A stretch of 64,000 bases of DNA, from contig WHSP01000008.1 in NCBI GenBank assembly GCA_009380025.1, positions 1 to 64,000 of the forward strand, in the 5' to 3' direction. The position numbers were made by a program, and so were the translations under genes. The notes below the pieces were generated by a model. The model saw only the letters and a list, made by a program, of their open reading frames with translations, had not been told where the DNA came from and made no database searches. The stretch is from Gemmatimonas sp. GTDB taxonomy: Bacteria > Gemmatimonadota > Gemmatimonadetes > Longimicrobiales > Longimicrobiaceae. Of this stretch, positions 35,916 to 42,584 are shown in pieces (positions within the stretch are counted from its first letter, which is position 1; every line of letters starts with the position of its first letter).

Positions 35916-36172
35916 AATCCAATCGGCTCCTTTGCTTGAGTAGCGAGACCCGGCGGCAACGGCACTCCGGCCATCACCCCTCCAGGCACGAGGATGCGGG
36001 TCGATCGTCCGCCTCCTATTACTATCGGACGCCGGTAACAAGAGTACGAACGAATCGTCACAGTTACTTGGTCGAATGCGCGTGGGCGGGTGACAAACGG
36101 CGATCCGCGTCGCCGTCCCATCTCCTGGCTAGCATCGGTGGTTGTCTGGGACCGTCGTCACTGAGAACGCTC

Positions 36173-36200
36173 TTGCGGGGTTTGCAGATCGGCTTATAGT
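36173..36200 (+). promoter_or_regulatory. Sigma70-like promoter for a leaderless arsR-type gene
   Basis: TTGCGG (36173-36178) and TATAGT (36195-36200) are 16 bp apart. Transcription would begin about 7 nt after the -10 box, essentially at the ATG (36208), and no ribosome-binding site is visible, so the mRNA is probably leaderless. Confidence 0.5.
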
Positions 36201-36207
36201 ACACCCT

Positions 36208-36570
36208 ATGGTTAACTATCTGGCGGGACTCGATGCGGTCTTCCTCGCCCTCGCCGATCCCACACGGCGAGGGATGATCGAGCGATTGTCGCGCGGCCCA
36301 GCGACTGTCGGAGAGCTCGGCCGGCCGTTCGCGATGACGAAACCTGCGATCACAAAGCACGTGAGGACGCTTGAGCAGGTGGGGCTGGTGCGTCGTGAAC
36401 GGATTGGCCGGATCCATCGCTGCACTCTTGCGCCTGAGGCGATGCGCGACGCGGAAGAATGGATCGAGCGGCATCGGAGGTTCTGGAAATCCAGCCTGGA
36501 TCGGCTCACACGCCATGTGGAGAGTGGCGACAAGCTTACCCTGGCATTGACGGAGGAGAGAGATGAGTGA
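36208..36570 (+). CDS. ArsR-family transcriptional regulator
   Basis: 120 residues from the ATG at 36208. Winged-helix pattern: AVFLALADPTRRGMIERLS, then MTKPAITKHVRTLEQVGLV as recognition helix, then IGRIHRCTL as the wing. No metal-binding CxC is present, as in the ArsR subfamily paired with SRPBCC/AHSA1 proteins. The end overlaps the SRPBCC gene by 8 bp. It likely represses its own operon until a ligand appears. Confidence 0.9.
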   Translation: MVNYLAGLDAVFLALADPTRRGMIERLSRGPATVGELGRPFAMTKPAITKHVRTLEQVGLVRRERIGRIHRCTLAPEAMRDAEEWIERHRRFWKSSLDRLTRHVESGDKLTLALTEERDE

Positions 36571-37012
36571 GGCGATGAATGTCCTCGAGTTGGAGCTGGA
36601 GCGGAGCCTCCGGGCACCGAGGCAGCGCGTTTGGCAAGCGTTGACGCAGGGGGAAGAGATCGGACGATGGTATGGTCCGAGCGATGATTTCCGCGTCGAC
36701 GTCGTGGAATGGGATTGTCGGCCGGGTGGCAGCTACCGTGTAGCGATGCATGCTCCGGACGGCAACACCCATACGTGCTTCGGAACCTTCCGGGAGGTAG
36801 AGGCGCCGCGACGACTGTCGTACACGTGGAGCTGGGAGGGGCAGCCCCCGATGGATACCCTGGTGACATTCGAACTGGCCGAAGATGGAGAAATGACGAA
36901 GCTTCGCTTCAGTCACACCGGCTTCCCATCTGTCGAGTCACGAGAGCACCACAAGACCGGCTGGACGGGCAATCTCGATCGGCTTGCCAGGTTGGTTACT
37001 GAGGGCGAATGA
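36563..37012 (+). CDS. SRPBCC (AHSA1/START-like) domain protein
   Basis: 149 residues. The AHSA1-type hydrophobic cavity fold is seen in LELERSLRAPRQRVWQAL, IGRWYGPSDDF, CRPGGSYRVAMHAPDG and the C-terminal helix TGWTGNLDRLARLV. These bind small hydrophobic ligands. It is encoded in overlap with the ArsR-type gene, a frequent pair thought to sense a ligand. It converges on the ECF sigma gene, with only 6 bp between stops. Confidence 0.9.
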   Translation: MSEAMNVLELELERSLRAPRQRVWQALTQGEEIGRWYGPSDDFRVDVVEWDCRPGGSYRVAMHAPDGNTHTCFGTFREVEAPRRLSYTWSWEGQPPMDTLVTFELAEDGEMTKLRFSHTGFPSVESREHHKTGWTGNLDRLARLVTEGE

Positions 37013-38933: not shown

Positions 38934-40890
38934 TCACCCTGGCGTGAGGGCGGTGATCGGATCGACCCGGGTCGCGTGCCAGGCGGGGACTAGGCACGCG
39001 GCGATAGCGGAAGCGCCGAGCACGAGTGCGACAGAAGTTAGGACGAGGGGATCGAGCGGCTCAATGCCGAAGAGAAGCGATCCGACGACGCCAGTCAGCG
39101 CGGCGCTCGCTAGCACGCCGAGCAGCAGACCAACAACGGCTATACGTATGCCGTGCCCGAGGACGAGGCCGAAGATGCCGCCGGGCGCACTGCCAAGGGC
39201 GATCCGGATTCCCATCTCGCGCATCCGTCGGGTAACGGTATAGGCGAGGGCGCCATAGATCCCGATGATCGCCAGGAACAGCGCGACACCCGCGAAGACG
39301 AGGAGGAGCGTCATCGGCGTGCGGCGATCGGCCAACGACTCGGCGATCCGCTCGTCCATCGTCCGTACGTCGAAGAGCGGCAGCTCGGGATCGATGCGCG
39401 ACACGACCTCCCGGATGCCAGGGATCAGCAAGGAGGGATCCGCTCCCTCCCTCGCCCGAGCGACGAGGGCGTTGGACGTCCTCGGCCTCTGGAGCGCCGA
39501 GAAGTAGTAGGCACCGGCGTGTTCCTCGTTCGGAGCGGTCAGATCGTTCTGCTTGATCGTCTCGACGACGCCGATCACCGTATAGTAGTTCTCCTCCGTT
39601 ATCGACTCATCGCCGGGAACCGCGTCGACGAGCATCCGGCGGCCGAGGGGGCTCTCGTTGGGCCAGTAGCGCCTCGCGAGCCAACGATCGAGAACGACCG
39701 CCCGCGTCTGATCCGGGCCGTCCGACCAATCGAAGTCCCGTCCCTCCAGTAGTTCGATCCCCATCGTCTGGAAGTACGCTGGCCCCACCACGGTCTGAAG
39801 GGGGGACAGGAACGATTCGCCGGGTGGCGGCGTGTACCCCTCCGGCATGATGACGCTGCTGGACTCGTTGCCGCTGAAGGGGACATTGCTCGTGACGGTG
39901 GCCGCCGCGAGCGCGGGCACACTCTGCGCGTCCCGCAGCAGCTCACCGACGAAGGTCCGTCTCGCGTCCGCGTCGGAATAACGAACGGTCGGGAGAGAGA
40001 AATAGGCGGTGGCGAGCCCTCGCGAATCGAATCCCGGCGGAACGGCCAGTGCCGCGCGGAAGCTCATCAGCATCAGGCCAGCGGCGACCAGTAGCACAAA
40101 GGCGAGCGCGACCTGTCCGGTGACGAGGGTGTTGCGCAGCGCCACGGCACCGCGGCTCGCTGTCGCGCTTCGCCCTTCCGCCCTGAACACGCTGCTCAGA
40201 TCACGGCGGAGGACGTCGACGGCGGGTATAGCCGCAAAGAGGAGCCCCGTGACGACCGCGATTAGAATGGTGAACCCAACGATGGTGGTGTTGACGCCAA
40301 TCTCGGTCCCGCGGGGAAGGCGATCCAACCCTAGGCCGGTGAGCAGGCGCAGAACCAGTAGCCCAGCTAGGATCCCGAGGCCGCCTCCGATGAGGCTCAT
40401 GACGAGCGATTCGGTCACGATTTGGCGTGCGACGCGACCACGGGGTGCGCCGAGGGCCATTCGAGTCGCGATCTCGCCGAGTCGGTTCTGAGAACGCGCC
40501 AGCATGAGGTTGGCGATATTCACACACCCGATCAGGAGCACGAAGACGACGCCCGCCCACAACATGTAGAGGGTCGGGCGGACATCAGACACCAGGTCGT
40601 CCGTCGTCGCGACGACGGCCGTGGCGAAGCGGGTGTCCTCGAGGAGCTGGCGCGCGTTCGGGATCGTCGATTCGTCGATGAGCGCCTGGTTCAGCGCATC
40701 ATTCTGCGCCCGGGCCTGCTCGATCGTCGCGCCGTCGCGAAGCCTGGCCAGCATCTCGTAACTGTTGCTGTGCCAGGCATCGGCTGATCGAGCCTCCTGA
40801 TCGAACTCGAGGGGAAGAAAGAACCGCGCTTCCTCGTCGCCCACGACCCGGAACTTTGGAGGAGTAACACCGATAATCGAATACGCCCAC
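38934..40890 (-). pseudogene. ADOP/MacB-type ABC permease, C-terminal part (separated from its N-terminus)
   Basis: About 650 residues starting at YSIIGVTPPKF. This is the second half of the MacB periplasmic core followed by two FtsX permease domains: helices near LYMLWAGVVFVLLIGCVNIANLMLARS with the conserved RLGEIATRMALGAPRGRV, then the second set RMREMGIRIALGSAPGGI, ending HATRVDPITALTPG. The first membrane helix and first half of the periplasmic domain are missing from this strand but lie head-to-head at 41079-41613 on the other strand. Reading through to a start at 41003 adds only unrelated sequence. Probably non-functional in this arrangement. Confidence 0.8.
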
Positions 40891-41078
40891 GTGCGCCTCC
40901 CTCTCGCCCGACCATCGCACGCCTCTGCTCGTGATTTCCAGCCACCACTTAAGCACCTCGTCAACCGTGACATCGATGCCGGCCGGGACGACGACGGTCG
41001 CATCGGCCGAAACCCGGCGGCTTCGCGGCTCGTAGGTCAAACAACCAGCTTCCGACGTCTGCTTGCTCAATCTTATCG

Positions 41079-41613
41079 ATGCCTGCCATGAGCGAGACCC
41101 TCCGCGACATCCGGCTCGCCCTTAAGTCGCTCCGCCGTGAGCGCGCCTTCAGCGCTACTGTTCTGCTCACGCTGGCGGTCGTGATCGGCGCGAACGTGGC
41201 GATCTTCAGCGTCATCCAGGCCGTGCTCCTGGAACCCTTGCCTTACGAGGATGCCGATGAGCTCGTCACGGTCTACAACCAGTATCCCGGCGCTGGCGTG
41301 CCGCGAGCGTCGAACGGTTCTTTCGACTATTTCATGCGCCGTGAGCGGATCGACGCGTTCGAAGAGGTCGCGCTCGTAGAGGGCTACGGAAACACAGTCG
41401 GTGAACCAGGTTCCACCGAGCGGGTGAGTACTTTGCGGGCGACGCCGTCCCTCTTCCCGCTGCTGGGTGTGCAGGCTGCCCTCGGCAGGACCTTCATCGA
41501 AGACGAGATGAATCCGGGCAATCATCTCAAAGTAGTGTTGAGCGATGGGTACTGGCGGGAGCAATTCGCGGCTGATCCGGGCGTCGTGGGTACGGACCTA
41601 CGAATTGATGGGC
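41079..41613 (+). pseudogene. ADOP/MacB-type ABC permease, N-terminal part (inverted)
   Basis: About 178 residues: MPAMSETLRDIRLALKSL, first membrane helix (TVLLTLAVVIGANVAIFSVI), then MacB-core sequence (EPLPYEDADELVTVYNQYP, VVLSDGYWREQFAADPGVVG, TDLRIDG). Resemblance stops exactly where the minus-strand part at 40890 resumes. The frame continues with unrelated residues to 41756 and runs into the esterase 3' end. It is best explained as the 5' portion of one permease gene in an inverted segment. Confidence 0.75.
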
Positions 41614-41698
41614 CGTCATTAGGCGACTGTGATGTAAGGCGTACGGGTGACCCTCCGGCGGCAGACGCCCGCAGCGTACCTCGTCCCCTGCTTCACGG

Positions 41699-42584
41699 CT
41701 ACTTCGGCGTCCCAAAAAGAAACGTAAGCGCGCGTGACAGTCGGCCGGCCCAATAGCGTTCCGAGTGGAGTCCACACGGTTCAACTACTACGTCGATCTC
41801 CGGCGGCCGGCGAGTTGATTCCATGATTGCCTCGAGACGTCGGACGTCTGCGACTGCATCTCCAACGGCGTTATCGTCACGGCATTCTGTCCGTCCCTCA
41901 TGTGTACCGATTCCCATGTAAATCCGGTTAGGCCATTCCGTGACGGATTCCGCGAGACTGAGAACCGCGGCGTCACTGACGCAAAGCGAAGGTCTCCACC
42001 AGCAAGCCTGTGAGTTCGTGTGGTCGTTGCGCAGCCGTGTAGACAGCAATCAATCCGCCGTACGATGCGCCGCCGAGATACCGATGTTCTCGATCGGCGA
42101 GCACTCGATAGCGCTGTTCAATGACGGGAATGACCTCTTCGAATAGGAACCGTGGGTAATCCTGGCCGCGCGGGGAAGGCTCCGGCGGTGAAAGATGCAC
42201 GTCTTCCCAAGGAAGGTATTCCTTGGGCCGATTTCTCTTCCCCGCGTTATCGATTCCGACGACTATGACTGGAGCGATCATGCTATCCTGGATCAACCGC
42301 GCTGCTGATTCATCGACAAGCCACTGGTCGCCACTGAATTGAGAAGTTGAGCGGTCAAAGAGGCTTTGGCCGTCGTTCAGATAGAGGGCAGGATAAGCTT
42401 TCGCTCCGCCATCATAGCCGGGGGGTAGCCACACTCTGAGAGTGCGAGAGTTTCCAAAGACTTCACTTCGGAGCTCCAGTAGCTCTAGCCGCCCGGCCGC
42501 ATCGCCGCTGGATGGGTGCGACGGCACGGAGGCACACCCTCCGACAGCGAACTGCAGGCAGCACACGAGCGCGAAGATTCGCAT
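41699..42584 (-). pseudogene. Lipoprotein esterase (alpha/beta hydrolase, esterase D/Fes-like) with a frameshift
   Basis: The start at 42582-42584 gives a lipoprotein signal (MRIFALVCCLQFAVGGC). The body has LRVWLPPGYDGG, YPALYLNDGQSLFD, PVIVVGIDNAG and the nucleophile elbow GGASYGGLIA. The frame ends early at LLVETFALRQ-stop. In the next frame the family's C-terminus continues (SLCVSDAAVLSLA, WPNRIYMGIGTHEG, catalytic His in EPCGLHSERYWAGRL, ending FLFGTPK at 41699). One frameshift near 42005 therefore separates the catalytic Ser from the His. It is a pseudogene or a sequencing error. Confidence 0.75.

Follow-up and report, generated by a model that had tools for sequence, protein, structure and literature searches.

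We have analyzed a split permease gene in the first 64,000 positions (hereafter the window) of contig C467, which is 72,593 bases long and belongs to a 5.0 Mb assembly of 478 contigs. Two ORFs are concerned, 38934-41003 on the minus strand and 41079-41756 on the plus strand. Each holds one piece of a protein of the ADOP family of duplicated permeases, represented by the NCBIfam model TIGR03434 (MacB_PCD plus FtsX twice; cut-off 622.3 bits). The features of the locus are as follows.

38934..40883, minus strand: C-terminal piece of the ADOP permease, 649 codons, in the ancestral orientation, open and without internal stop.
40885..40889, no strand: GCCCA, left member of a short inverted repeat, read from the sequence; 40885-40888 would be half of the inferred ancestral GGGCGGGC.
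40889..41613, no strand: putative inverted segment, 725 bp, with its most likely boundaries; when it is flipped, the spacer has 9 nt as in the relatives, the frame is correct and the GR dipeptide of close relatives appears.
41079..41609, plus strand: N-terminal piece of the ADOP permease, 177 codons, the first part of the first MacB_PCD domain, within the inverted segment.
41609..41613, no strand: TGGGC, right member of the short inverted repeat, read from the sequence; 41610-41613 would be the other half of the inferred GGGCGGGC.
41614..41698, no strand: intergenic stretch from the right breakpoint to an esterase pseudogene, delimited by the position of the distal stop of the esterase.

In profile searches the N-terminal piece (41079-41609, plus strand), which encodes residues 1-177, matched positions 2-170 of TIGR03434 with 160 bits, and the C-terminal piece (40883-38934, minus strand), which encodes the remainder, matched positions 174-800 of 803 with 618 bits. 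Searched apart, each piece stays below the cut-off of 622.3 bits, while the sum of 778 lies above it. The two pieces do not overlap on the model and just three model positions lie between them. In Pfam matches the first MacB_PCD domain is split across the pieces at position 145, with positions 1-145 on the N-terminal piece, and the second MacB_PCD and the FtsX domains sit in the C-terminal piece. The N-terminal piece ends in LRIDG, with the D codon at 41607-41609, and reads on through about 47 unrelated codons beyond residue 178. The C-terminal piece begins with YSIIGV, its first codon being 40883-40881, and has no authentic start. According to the first-pass annotation, a local inversion of about 730 bp had split an ADOP gene. 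This is well supported, and the division of the model between the two strands goes far beyond chance. Besides the N-terminal coding part, the segment between the breakpoints contains 190 bp of upstream sequence. A minus-strand frame in it with GC-rich third positions (40889-41070, about 61 codons) was considered as a divergent short gene upstream of the N-terminal piece and rejected, since neither a Pfam match nor, in 99 genomes, a relative was found for it.

The N- and C-terminal pieces were searched separately against 146 related genomes, and a scan of genome contigs gave further loci. Both pieces match the same orthologues in other Gemmatimonadota, each one an intact ORF (in G079, G111, G045, G118, G094, G100, G112 and G029). 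Identity to these orthologues is 52-72% for the N-terminal piece and 44-60%, mostly 56-60%, for the C-terminal piece; the N-terminal piece is 71% identical to the orthologue at locus L031. The uninterrupted ORFs of the orthologues are about 820-870 codons long, and intact orthologues score 801 and 834 bits on TIGR03434, over the 622.3 cut-off. In 47 of the 56 loci that have both parts, the parts are colinear and the spacer from residue 177 to the equivalent of YSIIG is exactly 9 nt; the other nine are truncated or divergent alignments, and some of the 56 are the same gene fetched twice. None of the 56 related loci has the two parts on opposite strands. The colinear spacing in the relatives, together with this lack of any opposite-strand arrangement, indicates that the intact order is ancestral and the order in the window derived. 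Alignment with intact homologues, suggested in the first-pass annotation, thus upholds its statement that the YSIIGV end of the minus-strand fragment and the LRIDG end of the plus-strand fragment are adjacent in intact genes. A single chain of about 800 residues with two MacB_PCD / FtsX units describes both the orthologues and the gene as it would have been before the inversion; in the present order of the window the ADOP pieces do not form one chain. The pieces together cover positions 2-800 of the 803 of TIGR03434 in order, but unlike intact members of the family the gene here is divided between two strands, with the break inside codon 179.

The same arrangement could in principle be the remains of two different ADOP genes lying head to head, an N-terminal stub beside a C-terminal part. 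ADOP genes are abundant in this genome, which has 119 MacB_PCD matches, and some of them are divergently paired. The two pieces are also placed slightly differently in the trees: in the N tree the window sequence falls beside L031, in the C tree near the base of the clade, and the N-terminal piece is closer to L031 (71% against 58%). However, a single clade with support of 100 and 98 contains both pieces, and exchanging the tree positions was not rejected by AU tests (p 0.30, 0.10 and 0.16), so that one history is allowed and separate origins, considered because of these placements, are not supported. The N-terminal part is more conserved than the C-terminal part between most intact relatives too. 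The other ADOP copies of the genome match the N-terminal piece at no more than 43% identity. Moreover, the pieces complement each other to the codon, neither overlapping nor leaving a gap, and in the relatives the gene matched by both is one intact ORF. Two independent truncations meeting at the same codon would be much less likely than one inversion, and we regard an origin from two genes as very improbable. The apparent head-to-head pair of ADOP fragments is then better described as one inverted gene.

The boundaries of the inversion can be placed from the spacing in the relatives. The first-pass annotation had proposed a flip of 40885-41613 that would rejoin the gene to within one base of the correct frame. 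This flip does leave the gene out of frame, as claimed, since the D and Y codons end up 5 nt apart, a shortfall of 4 nt compared with the relatives. Flipping 40889-41613 (725 bp) does better: it restores the 9-nt spacer and the frame, giving GAT GGGCGGGCG TAT, which is read D-GRA-Y. The close relatives have D-GRP-Y (L030 and L032), D-GRS (L031) and D-GVA-Y (L034) at this join. The flip yields RIDGRAYSIIGV, compared with RVDGRPYTVVGV in L030 and L032, and L032 has GACGGGCGGCCCTAC at the join. Other flips that give 9 nt would encode GPA, GPS or GWA, and were set aside as they resemble the close relatives less. Most simply, the most economical ancestor of this sequence carried GGGCGGGC and was broken between its two halves without loss of bases, if no small indel has since arisen at the junction, an assumption on which the exact breakpoints depend.

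The sequence does contain GCCCA at 40885-40889 and TGGGC at 41609-41613, as the first-pass annotation had noted. Their proposed role in the inversion is not borne out. An inverted repeat of equal or greater length occurs within +/-8 bp in 19% of random pairs of positions at the same distance, and within +/-4 bp in 4%; since 19% of random pairs show one as long, the 5-bp repeat is not remarkable. No longer inverted repeats were found at the junctions. A crossover inside GCCCA/TGGGC would leave a 5-nt spacer and the wrong frame. The pair is most simply explained as the two direct-repeat halves of GGGCGGGC, turned face to face by the inversion itself, plus one chance base. When an inversion ends in short inverted repeats, these may thus simply reflect the position of the break and need not be recombination sites.

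Among the explanations offered in the first-pass annotation was a switchable element, in this case a reversible intragenic inverton in which inversion of the stretch between GCCCA and TGGGC would toggle the permease. Invertons are regions flanked by inverted repeats of 10-40 nt and flipped by an invertase (PMC11892184). As in intragenic invertons, the 5' part of the gene lies here in a short reversed segment with inverted bases at its ends; a flip nearly rejoins the gene, and the pieces appear from their sequence to be intact enough to function once rejoined. The locus differs from intragenic invertons in having no repeat of at least 10 bp and no nearby invertase, and in that a flip at the repeat leaves the frame broken, so both orientations would be non-functional. 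The repeat of 5 bp is at chance level, against 10-40 nt in published invertons. No serine or tyrosine recombinase domain, integrase or resolvase, was found on contig C467; the resolvase and phage-integrase matches of the genome are all elsewhere, from where such an enzyme could still act. The inverted state is seen in no relative, only one orientation is present in the assembly, and a search of the rest of the assembly did not find the opposite arrangement. A switch operating through this repeat is therefore highly unlikely, and of the explanations offered earlier it is mutation that is favoured. There is, at most, a slight chance of a phase-variable permease flipped by a recombinase encoded elsewhere, which would act not through the 5-bp repeat but by cutting at 40889 and 41613. 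Such cuts, if they occur, would restore the frame exactly, and both orientations in reads would then reveal an unusual switch without repeats.

On the evidence of the sequence, then, a single ADOP permease gene has probably been cut by one recent local inversion and has become a pseudogene. One inversion of about 725 bp (40889-41613) would have cut a minus-strand gene, with one breakpoint inside codon 179 and the other in the upstream intergenic region, both of them placed by comparing the locus with its intact relatives. The N-terminal part and the upstream region would thereby have been reversed, now reading into unrelated sequence after residue 178, and the C-terminal three quarters would have been deprived of start and promoter, which presumably inactivated the gene. 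The join inside the gene appears clean, with no apparent loss of bases, and would require no repeat; an illegitimate double-break or template-switch event is the mechanism we infer. The orthologues have the pieces adjacent on the same strand, and one inversion explains the present order. The case resembles inversion pseudogenes in that a single inversion has one intragenic and one intergenic breakpoint, with no adjacent recombinase or long repeats and with intact orthologues elsewhere, and nothing notable sets it apart from them. Literature searches on small-inversion pseudogenes, assembly inversions and ADOP provided nothing directly useful. GC3 is normal for coding sequence in the two pieces (0.75 and 0.80), and the pieces retain 90% of the residues that do not vary among the other orthologues, within the 80-97% range of the intact ones. 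As both pieces are open and well conserved with normal GC3, the event, if real, would be recent on this scale.

These same properties bear on whether the event took place in the cell at all. A piece of about 725 bp could have been misoriented during assembly or scaffolding, or chimeric templates could have been assembled, in which case the gene would be intact in the cell. Several features would suit this: the two pieces are entirely open, with conservation as though under selection until very recently, the flip restores a perfect frame, as expected if nothing had happened in the cell, and the assembly is fragmented into 478 contigs. A recent real event would, however, also fit with well-conserved pieces that re-inversion returns to a perfect frame. 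Both junctions are continuous in bases and the window contains no N. The junction repeats of 5 bp are too short to mislead a k-mer assembler, so that a wrong join would have to arise at both ends, through chimeric reads or a gap-closing error. Real decay is plausible in itself, given the lesions described below, which cluster in a few nearby and paralogous genes. We consider an artefact unlikely, though with a chance that should be kept in mind.

A real inversion would not be an isolated lesion. The neighbouring esterase gene (PF00756; 42707-41699, minus strand) has a net frame change near 42010, with Pfam Esterase positions 1-138 in one frame and 153-250 in another, and its halves are otherwise open. 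Twelve suspicious ADOP stretches, obtained from the family search and from fetched stretches, were inspected elsewhere in the genome. Four ADOP copies of 1.0-3.5 kb are broken by frame changes, L081 (C48), L082 (C133), L084 (C456) and L086 (C453), the C456 copy having three or more. In a fifth, L083 (C137), an internal deletion is combined with a frame change, and some further stretches among the 12 look truncated. Most ADOP ORFs in the genome are full length. The clustering of frame changes in a few genes fits pseudogenes better than sequencing error, which would be evenly spread. None of the other ADOP copies checked is split between opposite strands. Most likely the inverted gene is one of several decaying ADOP copies, with at least five others broken, and a heavily duplicated family is losing copies in this genome. 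Beyond annotation, the inversion is of little importance.

At L089 (C476:2800-5200) a complete ADOP gene faces, head to head, the C-terminal half of another (reference residues 475-817).

The nearest relatives of the split gene are in metagenome-assembled Gemmatimonadota, and no second strain of the same species was found. The closest orthologues belong to other families of the order and to scattered phyla (Eiseniibacteriota and Acidobacteriota), not to the family of the window. This patchy spread suggests that this ADOP gene was perhaps horizontally acquired. In the orthologue loci that were fetched, none of the genes that neighbour the ADOP gene in the window was found next to it, and no similar sequence was found in phages. 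Elsewhere in the window, at 36142-37012 on the plus strand, an ArsR-type regulator is followed by an SRPBCC-like protein, a pair that recurs in L048 near 13.0-13.7 kb.
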